Origin: Thermopolyspora flexuosa
Lineage (GTDB): Bacteria > Actinomycetota > Actinomycetes > Streptosporangiales > Streptosporangiaceae
NCBI RefSeq assembly: GCF_006716785.1
Contig: NZ_VFPQ01000001.1
Span: 4,278,001-4,342,000, forward strand
Direction: 5' to 3'
Length of the DNA: 64,000 bases
The translations under genes and the position numbers were made by a program. Every line of letters starts with the position of its first letter. The first letter of the stretch is position 1. Positions 53,808-64,000 of this stretch are shown here, piece by piece. The notes below the pieces were generated by a model. The model made no database searches. It saw only the letters and a program-made list of their open reading frames with translations, and had not been told where the DNA came from.

Positions 53808-54299
53808 TCAGCACCTGGCCTTGATGGTGTCCATCACCCTGCCGAACCGGCCGGGGTCGTGGTACCGCTCGCTCCAGTCCCGGAAGTGCACCGGCCGCCG
53901 CTCCCCGGTCTCGCTGTCCACGAAGCAGGCCTGCGCCTGGGCGTCGAAGGAACCGACGTGCTCGCGCAGATAATCCGGAATGCGCCCCTCCTCGCTCACC
54001 CCCGGCGTCCAGGTCCAGACCTTGCCGCCGAACCGCCCCTCCGGCCACAGGCAGATCGAGCCGCTGTCACACGTGGGACGCGCCGACGCCGGCGCGGCGT
54101 GCCCGGGCGGATCGATGAACCGGTCGTACAGGTAGAAGCACGCGCTACCGATGCCGAGCACCGTGGCGACGATCGCCGCGATGCCCTCCCATTTCGTCCA
54201 CCATCCTTCCTGGGTGACCTGCCGTGACGTGGAGTCGGAATGCCCACGTGAATTATTATCAAAGGACCCGGCTTTTCCACTGAGTCGCTTTCCGCCCAT
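53808..54299 (-). CDS. Membrane-anchored protein with peptidase inhibitor I36-like domain (tentative)
   Basis: 163 residues from ATG 54299, with GGAAG upstream. A Ser/Asn-rich cytosolic N-terminus, one helix (EGIAAIVATVLGIGSACFYLYD), then an outer domain starting CDSGSICLWPEGRFGGKVWTW and ending CFVDSETGERRPVHFRDWSERY ... DTIKARC. The C-x-S/G-x-x-C-LW-x-E-x-x-F-G-G pattern is like the I36 (SMPI) inhibitors of Streptomyces, and four cysteines could pair. Anchored forms of this domain are less usual. An inhibitory function is inferred from fold resemblance only. Confidence 0.5.
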   Translation of the reverse strand: MGGKRLSGKAGSFDNNSRGHSDSTSRQVTQEGWWTKWEGIAAIVATVLGIGSACFYLYDRFIDPPGHAAPASARPTCDSGSICLWPEGRFGGKVWTWTPGVSEEGRIPDYLREHVGSFDAQAQACFVDSETGERRPVHFRDWSERYHDPGRFGRVMDTIKARC

Positions 54300-58891: not shown

Positions 58892-59437
58892 CTAGAACGT
58901 CCGGCGCCACCATCCAGGGATCCGGGTGCGTCGTTTGTCCGGGTTGCGTGCTGCGATCGTCGCGTTGAGCGCGGTGGCGAAGGCGGTCCACGCGAGGTAC
59001 GGCGTCAGCGCCGCGGCGGCGCGGCGGTCGGCGCGGCCGAAGCGGCGCAGCAGGTCGAGGTTGGACGCGTTGAGCGCGGCGAGGTCGGCGAGGGCGAGCC
59101 GGGGCGCGTGGGCGCGGAAGAACAGCGGGGTCCACGCGGCGTTGAGCGCGAGGTTGACGGCGAGCGCGCGGGCCACGGCGCCGCGTTCGCCGTTCTCGCC
59201 GTTCTCGCCGGTCGCGGCGAGCGCACGGGCTCCGCCGTACGCGATCAGCCCGTAGAGCACGGGCCACACCACCCCGAACGCCGCCGGCGGCGGCTGCCAG
59301 CGGGGCTTGCGCAGCCGCCGGTACCAGGACGAGCCGGGGTCGGTGGCGATCCCGCCGAGCGCGGCGGCCGCACCGACCGCCGGGGCGGTGCGGAGGAGGT
59401 AGCGGAGGACACGCCGGTTGTGCGCATGGTCGGCCAT
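58892..59437 (-). CDS. TspO/MBR family membrane protein
   Basis: 181 residues from ATG 59437. Five helices. Family marks: GGIATDPGSSWYRRLRKPRWQPPPAAFGVVWPVLYGLIAYG, NLALNAAWTPLFF and LTPYLAWTAFATALNATIA. Members bind porphyrins or other small hydrophobic molecules in the membrane. A loop between helices 2 and 3 has ENGENGE from a 9-base tandem repeat. Follows the B12 gene's start by 36 bases on the same strand, so the two may share a transcript. Confidence 0.9.
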   Translation of the reverse strand: MADHAHNRRVLRYLLRTAPAVGAAAALGGIATDPGSSWYRRLRKPRWQPPPAAFGVVWPVLYGLIAYGGARALAATGENGENGERGAVARALAVNLALNAAWTPLFFRAHAPRLALADLAALNASNLDLLRRFGRADRRAAAALTPYLAWTAFATALNATIAARNPDKRRTRIPGWWRRTF

Positions 59438-59571
59438 GGTCCGGCACTACCCCGCGGCGGGCGGACCATCCGTCGCGGCGCCTGCCGCTTCGCCGGGAAT
59501 TCTGCTATTCACGACATTTCAGTCATAAGTCGCGTCCAACATCGGACGTCACATACGCCCGATACATCACT

Positions 59572-59592
59572 GTGATCTTGGTATGGCAGACT
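59572..59592 (+). promoter_or_regulatory. Conserved upstream element, copy 1
   Basis: A 21-base stretch reading GTGATCTTGG...GGCAGACT, 54 bases before the first exported paralogue. Eighteen of 21 bases match the stretch at 61060-61080, while the flanks do not align well. Similar position and orientation suggest a shared promoter or operator. See the finding on the tandem exported proteins. Confidence 0.45.
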
Positions 59593-59645
59593 CCCGCCCA
59601 CTCTCTACCGACGTCGGCATATGAGCTTTCGAGAGGAATCCCGAT

Positions 59646-60620
59646 ATGAGGCGCCTGACGGCTGGACTGGCCTGTGCCGCCGCCGCCGCGCTGATCACGC
59701 CCACGGCGGCCGCGGCGTACGCGGACGCGGACCGCCCGGAGACGAAGCAGGCGGCGCCGCAGGCCACCGCGAAGAACGCGAAGAAGTCGAAGAGCACCAC
59801 GCCCGACCCGGTCGCCGCGGTCGGCGGGCGGCTCGCCGCCGGGGCCGGCGTGACGTACCGCTCCGCCACGACGGTGCAGGGCACGGTCGTCGCGACCACC
59901 TCCGCCACCTTCCGGCTCGACCGGTCCGGGCTCGCCGCCAGCGACGTCACCTCCCGCCTCACCGTGAAGGCGGCCGCCCTCGGTGAGGACGCCGGGCTCG
60001 CCGTGAAGCCCGAGCGCACGATCAAGATCGGCGACGTCACGTACCTGAACAGCCCGCTGCTCCGCAAGAACCTCCCCACGGACCGCCCGCTGGTGGAGGA
60101 GAACGGCCCGGAGGCCGCCCTGCTCACCGATCCCCTCACCAGCGGCCGGGCGTGGATCGAGACGCGTAACGGCCCGGTCGCCGGCGCGCTCGGCGTCTTC
60201 GGGCAGCTCGTCAACCCCGCCGAGCCCGGCACGCTGAAGGCCCTGCTCGCCACCACCAAGTCCACCCGCTCCGGCGTGGTGCTGGACGGCGCGAAGACCA
60301 CGGTCTACCGCGGCACGGTGACGATCGGGCGGCTGCACAAGGTCTCCCCGTGGCTGCGCGCCACGCTGCCGCTGAAGTCCGCCCCCAAGGCCGCGAACAC
60401 CGCGATCGACTGGGCGCTGTACGTCGGCAAGGACGGCCTGCCCCGCCGGATCGTGACCTCCTGGTCCCCGGCCGCCCTCGGCCTGGGCTCGCAGAAGTTC
60501 ACCGTGGACAGCCGGTTCACCTCGTGGGCCGCGAACGTCCGCGTCAAGCCCCCGGCCGACGACCAGATCGTCCGGGTCGACCCCCGTCACCTCACCACGG
60601 CCTCCCCGCTCGGCCGGTGA
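59646..60620 (+). CDS. Exported LolA/LppX-like protein, paralogue 1
   Basis: 324 residues from ATG 59646, with GAGAGGAA upstream. Sec signal peptide (MRRLTAGLACAAAAALITPT ... AYA) without a good lipobox. Lys/Thr-rich linker, then a beta-rich domain with GVTYRSATT, VKIGDVTYL, FGQLVNPAEPGTLKALLATTKS, TIGRLHKVSPWLR, WALYVGKDGLPRRIVTSWSPAALG and KPPADDQIV. This looks like a LolA/LppX fold, used to carry or sense lipids, but that is by eye. The 506-base gap after it may carry another promoter, as paralogues 2 and 3 are next. Confidence 0.75.
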   Translation: MRRLTAGLACAAAAALITPTAAAAYADADRPETKQAAPQATAKNAKKSKSTTPDPVAAVGGRLAAGAGVTYRSATTVQGTVVATTSATFRLDRSGLAASDVTSRLTVKAAALGEDAGLAVKPERTIKIGDVTYLNSPLLRKNLPTDRPLVEENGPEAALLTDPLTSGRAWIETRNGPVAGALGVFGQLVNPAEPGTLKALLATTKSTRSGVVLDGAKTTVYRGTVTIGRLHKVSPWLRATLPLKSAPKAANTAIDWALYVGKDGLPRRIVTSWSPAALGLGSQKFTVDSRFTSWAANVRVKPPADDQIVRVDPRHLTTASPLGR

Positions 60621-61126
60621 CCTTCGCGGCGCTCGATGACGTCCGGGAGTGACCCGGCGCGCCGTCACTCCCGGACGATTCGGGCGCCGCGCGACCTCCG
60701 GCCACCGCCACGGAACGCGGCCCGCCGCCACGAAACCCCTCACGAACCGGCCGGAGCGAGGCGCGCGTCCCGTCACGCCTGTATCCCAGGCCACCGGCGC
60801 ATCCGCGTCCCCGCCGCCCTCCCCGTCGCGGCCCCGCGGATTCACCGCCCGCGACGCCCGGCACGACCTTGCCGTTTCAGCACACCGCCGGCCGCCGTCA
60901 CGTCATGCGCACGCGCGATTTCGATATCGCGCCGCCAAACGGTATCCGGATTCGCCACACAGTGACGTTCGTCATTTCCTCCGGATGACTTTCGTCATTT
61001 ACCCGCACATTCGTCAAAGATTAAATTACTGCCGATGTTTTCCGTTTTGACATTGACTCGTGATCTTCGTTCGGCAGACTGCGCAGCGCAGGAGAGCAGG
61101 CGAGAATTCGAGAGGAAACCCCCCAG
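60621..61126. other. 506-base gap between paralogues 1 and 2
   Basis: GC-rich to about 60900, then AT-rich to 61080 (for example AAAGATTAAATTACTGCC). The AT-rich end holds TTGACT at 61054-61059 and the conserved element at 61060-61080. No gene. Confidence 0.5.
61060..61080 (+). promoter_or_regulatory. Conserved upstream element, copy 2
   Basis: Reads GTGATCTTCG...GGCAGACT, 46 bases before paralogue 2; matches the copy at 59572-59592 in 18 of 21 positions. TTGACT lies directly before it and CAGACT ends it, so it might overlap a -35/-10 pair with 16-base spacing. The spacing is inference. Confidence 0.45.
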
Positions 61127-61972
61127 ATGAGGCGTGTCACGCCCAAATTAGCCGCGCTCGCCGTCGCGGCGCTGTTCGCGCCCGTGGCGGTGGCCTCCCC
61201 TGCACACGCGAAACCCACCCCCGACCCGCTAACCGCGCTGCGCAAGCAGCTCACCGCCGGCGGCGGCGTGACGTACACGTCCCGCACCACGCTGCGGAAC
61301 AAGCGCATCGCCACCACCACCGGCGCCTTCCGGTTCGGCCGGTCCGGCCTCGCCGCGAGCCGCCTGTCCACCGGCCTTCGCGTGGAACTCCCGAGCCTGC
61401 GCGAGAACCCCCTGCTCGAGGCGCTGCCCGAGGAGACGGTGAAGATCGGCCGCACCGCCTACCTCCGCAACGTGGAACTCGTCCTCCGCCACCGTGAGCG
61501 CCGGCCGTGGGCGCAGGTGAAGGACGGACCCGCCACCGGCCTGTACGGCGTGCTCGGTCAGCTCGTCAACCCCACCGAGCCCGCCACGCTCAAGACCCTG
61601 CTCGCGCAGAGCAGGTCCAAGCGCCCCGGCGGGGTGGTGGGCGGCACGAGGACCACGCTCTACCAGGGCAAGGTGACGATCGGCCGGCTGTACCGGGTCT
61701 CCCCCTGGCTGCGTGACGCGCTGCTGACCAAACCCACCCCGAGGCTGGCGAAGACCACGGTCGACTGGAAGCTGTACGTCGGCGCGGACGGGCTGCCGCG
61801 CCGCGTGGTCTCCTCGTGGTCGCCGGCCGCGCTCGGCGTGACCAAGGGCAGGTTCACCGCCGACAGCACGTTCACCCGGTGGGGCAGGAAGATCTCGATC
61901 AAACCTCCGGCGGACCACGAGGTCATCCAGATACCCAAATCCGAGATCAAGCCCCCGCTCCCTGTGAAGTGA
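61127..61972 (+). CDS. Exported LolA/LppX-like protein, paralogue 2
   Basis: 281 residues from ATG 61127, with GAGAGGAAACC upstream. Signal peptide (MRRVTPKLAALAVAALFAPVAVASPAHA), then the same blocks as paralogue 1: GGVTYTSRTTLRN, RSGLAAS, VKIGRTAYL, GQLVNPTEPATLKTLLAQS, TLYQGKVTIGRLYRVSPWLR, WKLYVGADGLPRRVVSSWSPAALG and KPPADHEVI. The internal linker of paralogue 1 is absent. Shares the 21-base upstream element. Probably extracytoplasmic; ligand unknown. Confidence 0.75.
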   Translation: MRRVTPKLAALAVAALFAPVAVASPAHAKPTPDPLTALRKQLTAGGGVTYTSRTTLRNKRIATTTGAFRFGRSGLAASRLSTGLRVELPSLRENPLLEALPEETVKIGRTAYLRNVELVLRHRERRPWAQVKDGPATGLYGVLGQLVNPTEPATLKTLLAQSRSKRPGGVVGGTRTTLYQGKVTIGRLYRVSPWLRDALLTKPTPRLAKTTVDWKLYVGADGLPRRVVSSWSPAALGVTKGRFTADSTFTRWGRKISIKPPADHEVIQIPKSEIKPPLPVK

Positions 61973-62071
61973 CCGTTCGCGGGACGACACCCGCACTCAC
62001 CCCGACGACATCCGTACGGCGCGCCGACGCGGCCGACGCGTCCCGCTCGCCGTACCCCGTGAAAGGACACC

Positions 62072-62950
62072 ATGAAGAGATTCCTGGCGGTGCTCGCCGC
62101 CACGCTCATCGCACCCACGCTGGTGGCCGCCGCGACCCCGGCGGCCGCCCAGGCCGCGCCGCGCAACCCGGTGGCCGCGGTCCAGAAGCAGGTCGCCAAG
62201 AAGAGCGGCGTGCGGATCAACGAGACCACCCGGGTCACGGTCGACGGGAAGACCCTCCTGACCGCGAAGCAGGTCGGCGTGGTCAGGCTCGACCCCCGCC
62301 GCAAGGAGTTCTACGACGTGACGGGCCGGATCGTCGTCGACAAGGAGAGCGTCAAGCTGCGCATCCTCCGCGCGGGCGGCAAGGAGCACTACCTGCAGAG
62401 CCCGCTGCTCAAGGACGAGCTGCCCGAGGGCAAGACGTGGGTGAGCACCACGGAGTTCGCGTCCCTGCGCGGCCTGTCGACCGTCGACGGGACCAACCCC
62501 AAGGTGCTGAAGGTCCTGCTGGCCGGCGCCAAGTCCAAGGTTTCCGGCGGCAGGCTGGACGGCGTGCGGACCGTGGCCTACCGGGGCACGATCCCGGTCA
62601 GCCGGCTCGCCAAGGTCTCCCCGAACCTTCGCGACTTCGACACCGCGCTCAAGGGTGCCAAGGGCATCAAGCCGCCCTTCATCCGCTGGAAGCTCTACGT
62701 CGGCGGCCGTGACGGGCTCCCCCGCCGGCTCTCCACGGAGCTCGTGCTGTTCGAGGACAAGAAGGTCGGCTCGGTGAAGCTCCTCGACGACGTCCGCTAC
62801 AGCGGCTGGGGCACCAAGGTCAAGATCACGGCGCCGCCCGCCGACCAGGTGATCGACCTCAAGGAGCTGACGAGCGGGGACATCGAGGAGGTCCTCATCC
62901 CGTTCGCCGACCCGTTCAAGGGCCTGAAGCTCGACACCATCGCGGAGTGA
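62072..62950 (+). CDS. Exported LolA/LppX-like protein, paralogue 3
   Basis: 292 residues from ATG 62072, with GAAAGGAC upstream. Signal peptide (MKRFLAVLAATLIAPTLVAAATPAAAQA). Blocks are shared but more divergent: GVRINETTRVTVDGK, SPLLKDELPEGKTWV, WKLYVGGRDGLPRRLSTELV and ITAPPADQVIDLKEL. It lies 99 bases after paralogue 2 without its own conserved upstream element, so the two may be one transcript. Followed by a hairpin at 62990. Confidence 0.75.
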   Translation: MKRFLAVLAATLIAPTLVAAATPAAAQAAPRNPVAAVQKQVAKKSGVRINETTRVTVDGKTLLTAKQVGVVRLDPRRKEFYDVTGRIVVDKESVKLRILRAGGKEHYLQSPLLKDELPEGKTWVSTTEFASLRGLSTVDGTNPKVLKVLLAGAKSKVSGGRLDGVRTVAYRGTIPVSRLAKVSPNLRDFDTALKGAKGIKPPFIRWKLYVGGRDGLPRRLSTELVLFEDKKVGSVKLLDDVRYSGWGTKVKITAPPADQVIDLKELTSGDIEEVLIPFADPFKGLKLDTIAE

Positions 62951-62989
62951 CGTCCCAGCGGTGACCGACCGCAGGTGACGAGTCACACC

Positions 62990-63025
62990 CGGGCCCCGGC
63001 GGCCGTTCCGGCCCGCCGGGGCCCG
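62990..63025. terminator. Hairpin between paralogue 3 and the convergent helicase
   Basis: Perfect 13-base arms CGGGCCCCGGCGG and CCGCCGGGGCCCG with a ten-base loop. Only 18 bases from the helicase stop. No T tract. A shared terminator is likely. Confidence 0.65.
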
Positions 63026-63042
63026 TCACGTTTCCGGGGCGG

Positions 63043-64000
63043 TCAGAGCTTCTCGATGGGCGCGTAGGCGAGCAGCAGGGTCTTCACCCCCAGGCTGCCG
63101 AAGTCGATCTTCGCGCTCGTCTTGTCCCCCGCGCCGTCCACGGACAGCACCGTGCCGAGGCCGAACTTGTCGTGGTTGACCCGGTCCCCGGGCGCGAGGT
63201 TCGGCACCGTCCGGCCGCCCCGCCGCGGCGGTGCCGCCGCCGGGGCCCGGGTCTCGCGGGCGGTCGCCGCCGTGGTGACGGTCTTGCCCGGGTCGGTACG
63301 CCACTCGATCAGCTCCTCGGGCACCTCGGCGAGGAACCGGGAGGCCGGGTTGAACGACGGCGCCCCCCACGCGCTGCGCACCAGGGCCCGGGACAGGTAG
63401 AGGCGGCGCCGCGCCCGGGTGATGCCGACGTAGGCGAGGCGGCGCTCCTCCTCCAGCTCCTGCGGCTCGCCGAGCGAGCGCAGGTGCGGGAAGACCCCGT
63501 CCTCCAGGCCGGTGAGGAACACCACGGGGAACTCCAGGCCCTTGGCGGTGTGCAGGGTCATCAGCGTGACCACGCCCTGCCCGTCGTCGTTGTCCGGCAC
63601 CTGGTCGGCGTCGGCGACGAGGGACACCTGCTCGAGGAAGTCGACGAGCCCGCCCTCGGGGTTCGCCTCCTGGAACTCCTGGGCGACCGCGATCAGCTCG
63701 TTGAGGTTCTCCAGCCGGCTCGCGTCCTGCGGGTCCTCGGAGTTCTCCAGCTCGGCCCGGTACCCGGTGGCGGTGAGCACCTCCTCGGCGAGCTCGGCGA
63801 CCGGCAGCTCCTTGCGGCGCAGCTCCTCGAGCAGCTCGGTGAACTCCCGGATCGCGTTGATCGAGCGGGTGGCGAGCCCGGGCACCTCCTCGGCGCGCCG
63901 CATCGCCTCCCAGAACGGGACGCGCTCCCGCGCGGAGAACGCCTCCAGCATCGCCTCGGCCCGCTCGCCGATGCCCCGCTTGGGCACGTTGAGGATGCGC
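63043..64000 (-). CDS. pcrA: PcrA/UvrD-type ATP-dependent DNA helicase, C-terminal part (5' end outside window)
   Basis: About 319 residues, running off the right edge in the leading frame (RILNVPKRGIGERA). Superfamily 1A motifs: V in MTLHTAKGLEFPVVFLTGLEDGVFP and VI in ERRLAYVGITRARRRLYLSRA. The last 50 residues, after a Ala/Arg-rich linker, form the PcrA-type C-terminal domain (GDRVNHDKFGLGTVLSVDG ... IDFGSLGVKTLLLAYAPIEKL) that binds RNA polymerase in other species. It unwinds DNA 3'-5' in repair and conflict removal. Confidence 0.95.
   Translation of the reverse strand, partial: RILNVPKRGIGERAEAMLEAFSARERVPFWEAMRRAEEVPGLATRSINAIREFTELLEELRRKELPVAELAEEVLTATGYRAELENSEDPQDASRLENLNELIAVAQEFQEANPEGGLVDFLEQVSLVADADQVPDNDDGQGVVTLMTLHTAKGLEFPVVFLTGLEDGVFPHLRSLGEPQELEEERRLAYVGITRARRRLYLSRALVRSAWGAPSFNPASRFLAEVPEELIEWRTDPGKTVTTAATARETRAPAAAPPRRGGRTVPNLAPGDRVNHDKFGLGTVLSVDGAGDKTSAKIDFGSLGVKTLLLAYAPIEKL

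Follow-up and report, generated by a model that had tools for sequence, protein, structure and literature searches.

Do three neighbouring genes for exported proteins in Thermopolyspora flexuosa share a control element, and, if they do, what would read it and what would the proteins do? The genes stand near the end of the window, as we call the whole stretch of 64,000 nucleotides analysed here, which covers 4,278,001-4,342,000 of contig 1. Ahead of the first two we find a composite element that is conserved before members of the same protein family across genera and is scarce elsewhere; genes 2 and 3 have a predicted fold of the LppX/LprG kind. The reading we favour, and hold with some confidence, is an activator-dependent promoter, probably controlled by an OmpR-type response regulator, that would serve unanchored LppX/LprG-fold proteins. 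To an earlier note on this DNA the analysis adds, from sequence comparison, a composite tied to the family across genera, an apparent OmpR-type activated promoter anatomy and one candidate two-component system. The features are as follows.

59559..59592, forward strand: composite element of gene 1 (GATAC 59561-59565, GTGATC 59572-59577, -10-like CAGACT 59587-59592)
59646..60620, forward strand: gene 1, exported protein of 324 residues without lipobox (open reading frame, family profile, NF053532 at 36.1 bits)
61047..61080, forward strand: composite element of gene 2 (GACAT 61049-61053, GTGATC 61060-61065, -10-like CAGACT 61075-61080)
61127..61972, forward strand: gene 2, exported protein of 281 residues with predicted LppX/LprG-like fold, without lipobox (open reading frame, AlphaFold2 model, NF053532 at 34.4 bits)
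62072..62950, forward strand: gene 3, exported protein of 292 residues with predicted LppX/LprG-like fold, without lipobox and without an element of its own (open reading frame, AlphaFold2 model, NF053532 at 49.7 bits)

A composite element tied to one gene family

The 21-mers at 59572-59592 and 61060-61080 are identical at 18 of 21 positions, as the earlier note had counted. Its distance of 46 bases to the start of gene 2 also holds, whereas for gene 1 we count 53 bases from the end of the 21-mer to the ATG rather than 54. The conserved unit is longer, 34 bp, and the 21-mer forms its right part.

We collected 78 open reading frames (ORFs) of the family, of which 73, in 21 related genomes, have a placeable start; the other five were dropped before motif search and hold-out scoring. 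An expectation-maximization (EM) search of the 125 bases upstream of each start, with 40 restarts on the real and 15 on shuffled sequences, reached a log-likelihood of 368, against 105-113 in four shuffled sets, and estimated that 45% of the upstreams carry the motif. Scored by leaving out one genome at a time, 25 of the 73 upstreams, in 15 of the 21 genomes, reach at least 10 bits. None of the 73 reversed and none of the 73 reverse-complemented upstreams does so, and 11 of 3600 random pieces from the same loci do; some overlap of these pieces with true sites is possible. In this scoring the own genus was held out together; the hold-out applied to the scoring matrix alone, the register of the motif having been set with all sequences. 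Two of the 25 sites (L112 and L113, the former the sole site of its genome), at 6-7 bases from the start chosen, are possibly false. For training, only sites ending more than 20 bases ahead of the start were kept, 23 in all, and these end 31-71 bases ahead of it. The elements of genes 1 and 2 score 30.5 and 32.6 bits with the EM motif and 26.2 and 26.5 bits with the own genus held out (own-genome E 0.0127 and 0.00934). Upstream of gene 3 there is no element, the best score with the EM motif being -10.5 bits.

The consensus, CG[TA]GA[CT]-N6-GTGATC-N9-[CG]ANN[AC]T, comprises two half-sites 11 bp apart and then a -10-like hexamer. Across the 23 sites the conserved blocks are CG[AT]GA[CT] at positions 2-7, GTGATC at 14-19 followed by [TA][TC], and [CG]ANN[AC]T at 29-34, while the flanks and remaining columns are near background. 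Positions 3-7 and 14-18 resemble each other as a direct repeat with an 11-bp period, and no -35 box is conserved. It is this layout, similar blocks 11 bp apart and a -10-like hexamer without a -35, that we read as a response-regulator-activated promoter; such a layout is known from PhoB-type promoters. No Sigma-70 consensus promoter was found in 59400-63100, and at E 0.1 nothing in 58800-63200 matches Rfam.

Read directly, the upstreams of relatives, which presumably belong to the Streptosporangiaceae, carry the same signal: the same-genus genome G057 (record QGUZ01000036.1, an actinobacterial metagenome-assembled genome) shows it with 0 and 1 mismatches, G003 has it with 2 ahead of a short remnant-like ORF, and in others it is weaker. 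In two genomes of genus g4 (L079 4761-4781; L220 2720-2752, reverse strand), the element precedes a short ORF or remnant about 250-410 bases ahead of the family gene.

How specific is the element? In the window the joint 21-mer pattern with at most 3 mismatches matches twice (shuffled mean 0.03), and in the own genome of 5.77 Mb four times, the window pair being exact and two others at 3 mismatches. The full 34-bp model finds the window pair and one site at E 6.6 in the own genome and nothing else at E<1 (150 of 1169 first-look candidates scored); a general promoter is not supported. The common regulation proposed by the earlier note gains support from this scarcity, and also from the conservation of the element ahead of relatives in other genera. 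Two looser patterns were set aside: the 21-mer with at most 3 mismatches matches 60 of 60 genomes and so is uninformative across genomes, and a bipartite pattern with 2 mismatches gives too many own-genome matches (66, against 8 in the reversed control).

Across other genomes we used a sequence-only model built from the 23 sites, with at most 150 candidates scored per genome, so that absence of a match is no proof. Sixteen genomes give 74 matches at E≤10, and the best 17 (E<0.38, a cut set after the list was seen) all precede family genes: 15 are training sites, and two are new, ahead of short or broken copies. Twelve off-family matches of this search were read, and L179 among their loci proved to be a family gene. 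A second set comprised 35 further genomes without a training site, 20 family-bearing and 15 family-less (no match to our family alignment, A5, at 1e-10). Here 8 of 20 matches at E≤0.5 stand ahead of family genes or a remnant, in 7 of the 20 family-bearing genomes, and at E≤0.05 the share is 6 of 7. The 12 matches found elsewhere all lie within some ORF of more than 150 codons, which is weak evidence in GC-rich DNA, and two of the family-preceding matches lie within such ORFs too. In 27 later family loci the model finds 9 matches, all on the coding strand and 7 of them in genomes outside the model; eight stand 35-106 bases before a family-like start and one at about 410. The 21 loci outside the family from the class search have no match at E 1. 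One match (L247, about 1501; E 0.10), possibly due to chance, lies 31 bases ahead of a 448-residue ORF that we take to be a UbiB/AarF-type kinase.

The exported proteins and their predicted fold

As the earlier note had described, the three genes are tandem exported paralogues of 281-324 residues. Their ORFs are intact, and the N-termini run from M-[RK]-R through a hydrophobic stretch to A-x-A. By BLASTP, genes 1 and 2 share 47% identity (E 6e-80), genes 1 and 3 34% (E 2e-28), and genes 2 and 3 31% (E 4e-19). Neither reading of the sequences nor a regular expression found a lipobox in genes 1-3; gene 1 does have a cysteine, at residue 10, but it is too near the N-terminus and does not match the lipobox pattern. 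This is consistent with a putative free location, in the wall or the medium. The family profile has five matches in the own genome, the three genes and two unlinked members (L104 at C1:150027 and L109 at C1:2802139). Upstream motif scoring found no element at L104, and for L109 no start was placeable; the model matches in the own genome include neither of the two.

Sequence models place the proteins at the edge of known families. Genes 1-3 match no Pfam family at E up to 10, PF07161 (LppX_LprAFG) included, and that family matches 5 of 70 relatives at E≤0.01 (7 of the 78 ORFs were dropped before the lipobox list, and one more for alignment A5, leaving 70 of 71). All three match NF053532, the SCO4651 family lipoprotein model, over the C-terminal half in genes 1 and 2 and over almost all of gene 3; they fall below its cut-off of 65 bits and are without a lipobox. 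Of the relatives, 61 of 70 match the model at E 0.001, and a profile of all 70 finds the LprG sequence at E 2e-4.

AlphaFold2 (AF2) models give a mean predicted local distance difference test score (pLDDT) of 77.0 and a predicted template-modelling score (pTM) of 0.75 for gene 2, and 72.5 and 0.73 for gene 3. Both show the half-barrel of LprG and LppX. Foldseek returns LprG as the top match for both (E 1.1e-7 for gene 2, 5.8e-10 for gene 3). With VIA-align, gene 3 matches LprG at Z 14.8 (root mean square deviation, rmsd, 4.0 over 192 residues) and LppX at Z 12.5; gene 2 matches LprG at Z 12.9 (rmsd 3.9 over 177 residues) and LppX at Z 10.8. These models, matching LprG best, support a predicted fold of the lipid-carrier kind. 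The earlier note had suggested LolA/LppX carriers, and the lipid-carrier part is supported by the models and the LprG profile match; LolA, the same kind of half-barrel, scores below LprG (best Z 9.4 for gene 2 and 10.4 for gene 3), and the nearest structures are LprG, LprF and LppX. Outer-membrane lipoprotein sorting is not to be expected in this host. LppX and LprG are membrane-anchored handlers of mycobacterial envelope lipids. With these and LprF (PF07161) the window proteins share the predicted half-barrel and profile-level similarity to LprG; in contrast to them, they are without a lipobox, match no Pfam model, have longer chains and occur in tandem copies.

The proteins could instead be lipid-sensing or partner-binding, like RseB/MucB, which have the same fold and are not carriers. 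Both appear in the structure lists at Z about 8-9, but rank below LprG, LprF and LppX (Z 10.8-14.8), and we consider this role unlikely. For the carrier reading, the proteins would be exported and released as soluble LppX/LprG/LprF-fold half-barrels that may carry or hold lipid or lipoglycan outside the membrane.

What may read the element

In the mechanism we propose, a dimeric regulator, most likely a response regulator of OmpR/PhoB type, would bind the two half-sites 11 bp apart, and RNA polymerase would use the -10-like hexamer nine bases downstream of the second half-site, the -35 box not being conserved. Gene 1 would be transcribed alone and gene 2, probably with gene 3, as a second unit. 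The comparison systems are alike in outline: PhoP and AfsQ1 sites are documented as 11-nt direct repeats (PMC6988585), and MtrA sites as two short direct repeats five bases apart, with G/T-T-G/A-A-C-C-N5-G-T-G/T-A-C as the S. coelicolor site (PMC5650626). Direct repeats with an 11-bp period are common to the Streptomyces AfsQ1, PhoP and MtrA boxes, and AfsQ1 and MtrA have GTnAC-like half-sites, as in the element. Two direct half-sites with this period, the mark of an OmpR-type box, are present in our element, more weakly in the window's first half-sites. In contrast to those boxes, the element has GTGATC as its second half-site and a fixed -10-like hexamer 9 bases on, does not carry the AfsQ1 box GTnAC-n6-GTnAC in both halves, and has strong matches almost only ahead of one gene family. 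In the literature searched, the coverage of which was partial, a description of this element was not found, and SCO4651 is mentioned in one paper.

Several findings weigh against this mechanism. The window's first half-sites, GATAC and GACAT, are the weakest part of its own elements. Over the 23 sites the first base of the hexamer is C in 17, G in 6 and T in none; the fifth base of the second half-site is T in 91% (C in AfsQ1); and the sites differ from GTnAC-N6-GTnAC by 1 to 5 mismatches. Beyond the best 17 matches in the 16 genomes, only 5 of the other 57 of 74 (E 0.38-10) precede family genes. Among the 35 further genomes, 12 of the 20 matches at E≤0.5 stand elsewhere than ahead of family genes, 13 of the 20 family-bearing genomes have no match ahead of a family gene, and 2 of the 15 family-less genomes have a match, one of them, at E 0.016, being the seventh of the E≤0.05 set. 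Among 71 family genes placed in a tree, 48 are without a training site. Of the 30 own PF00486 places 14 were listed, and none of the response-regulator genes among these is nearer to the cluster than 97 kb. On the protein side, the AF2 models cover genes 2 and 3 only, were built on 5 sequences and have pLDDT 72-77, and the Foldseek TM-scores against LprG are 0.42-0.66.

Could the composite be a promoter of an alternative sigma factor, for example of the extracytoplasmic function (ECF) type, rather than an activator site? One composite of fixed spacing per gene, tied to one gene family, would suit such a factor. Yet GTGATC, the best conserved block, is separated from the hexamer by 9 bases and the first block by 21, gaps that fit the usual -35/-10 spacing badly, and the mutual likeness of the blocks at an 11-bp period is left unexplained by a sigma site. 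The sigma-E target table of PMC6767563 lists SCO4651 as a putative lipoprotein, a point in favour of this alternative and a hint towards envelope stress; its promoter is listed as a sigma-E type sequence, and the promoter-like element of the window is built differently. We regard a sigma site as improbable.

To a similar degree we doubt that a global OmpR-type factor such as MtrA is the regulator and the family an ordinary target among many. A gene that we take to be MtrA-like is present in the own genome (L193), and the S. coelicolor MtrA site, as given in PMC5650626, is close to the element motif. Strong full-model matches nevertheless concentrate on this gene family, although the full model includes the -10 and so would miss other arrangements, and the best box by the MtrA-like gene reaches 7.5 bits, under all 23 training sites (11.6-28.6).

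Returning to a response regulator of its own, we scanned 14 of the 30 own PF00486 places for the box, on one strand. The best box reaches 18.1 bits and stands in the gap between the stop of a response regulator and the kinase gene that goes with it; in other loci, 1 of 355,616 positions reaches 18 bits. As the same-genus copy scores only 9.5 bits, we discount this box as evidence for the regulator.

One response-regulator gene of the own genome, G000:C1:365511-366188, with an adjoining kinase gene, is a candidate. Of 18 family-bearing genomes, 17 have it at 87-100% identity and one at 68%, while the best match in family-less genomes is 47-58% (5 of 5); in G039, also family-bearing, the identity is 86%. 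Co-occurrence profiling covered this one regulator, and the family-less genomes are of other genera, so shared ancestry may explain the pattern. Within 75 bases upstream of the gene, 10 of 17 orthologues carry GTnAC-N6-GTnAC with at most 1 mismatch (0 of 17 reversed; mean 0.3 and maximum 3 of 17 in 200 shuffles), and the 7 that lack it include both own-genus copies. This 11-bp direct repeat appears to be of the same class as the element. In NCBIfam the nearest models are CseB (267 bits, cut-off 350) and MtrA (245 bits, cut-off 300), the candidate being below both cut-offs; we presume it to be AfsQ1-like. Co-occurrence and its own upstream repeat make this two-component system a lead as regulator of the element. 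Separately, 15 of 17 orthologues (L287-L303) have a palindrome, TGTGA-N6-TCACA, 87-175 bases ahead of the gene, presumably CRP-like.

More tentatively, and with more doubt than belief, we can picture a dedicated circuit of this actinobacterial family, in which one two-component system, possibly this one, would have as conserved targets its own operon and multiplied, soluble, unanchored LprG-fold carriers; whenever the carrier genes were duplicated or relocated, the operator would have moved along with them. If true, bacteria that have no mycobacterial outer membrane would possess a secreted response for handling lipids. In other actinomycetes than the mycobacteria, a large branch of such proteins, unanchored and under common regulation, with a defined operator and a candidate regulator, would offer a direct genetic handle on cargo and envelope condition.

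Six of the 23 training sites (L073, L085, L102, L106, L118 and L124) lie away from the sucCD-pcrA block, which indicates that the element follows the gene. A quick tree covers 71 rows, a slightly different 7 of the 78 having been dropped, and has good support on 29 of its 68 branches. On it the 23 bearers require 12 changes; shuffling gives 19.6 on average, and 0 of 500 shuffles are as low. The bearers cluster, but on branches far apart, as would be expected of an ancient promoter that stayed with its genes and was lost many times. None of 6 lipobox-bearing relatives has a training site. That the window elements are functionless leftovers of tandem duplication is very improbable: genes 1 and 2 do form one group with their orthologues from the same genus (SH-aLRT branch support 100), but ahead of distant paralogues in other genera and at other loci the same columns are conserved and the flanks are not, and the leave-one-genome-out conservation (25 of 73 against 0 of 73 in controls) largely refutes it.

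Proposed transcription units and surroundings

We propose gene 1 as one transcription unit, and gene 3 is probably co-transcribed with gene 2, judging from the 99-base gap. Past gene 1 lies one further feature.

60640..60677, forward strand: 14-bp perfect inverted repeat, 19 bases past the stop of gene 1 (repeat search, RNA fold)

The RNA fold of 60621-60700 has a z of -6.16, and the stem is largely kept in the same-genus genome. No T run follows the hairpin and a terminator scan found none; it may be a terminator or a 3' end structure that ends the gene 1 transcript. Upstream of the gene 2 element, three TTCGTCA repeats stand at 60963-61016, two of them inside TGAC-N4-GTCA palindromes; the same-genus genome has not kept the repeats or the palindromes, and the latter were rejected as a signal before gene 2.

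That genome has the same cluster, with orthologues of gene 1 (84%) and gene 3 (81%); its gene 2 copy (L069/L089) is internally shortened and altered at the C-terminus, and keeps the element with 1 mismatch. The recurrent neighbourhood of the family is a block of sucD, sucC, a B12-binding protein gene, the family genes and pcrA: among 77 loci searched, PcrA is near family genes in 21, the B12-binding protein in 21 and SucC in 24. In the window a TspO/MBR gene (58892-59437, reverse strand; Pfam E 9.7e-41) stands between the B12-binding protein gene and gene 1, and tblastn over the 77 loci finds TspO near family genes only in the same-genus genome. Further away, a 163-residue protein (53808-54299, reverse strand) matches peptidase inhibitor I36, though below threshold (E 0.00046).

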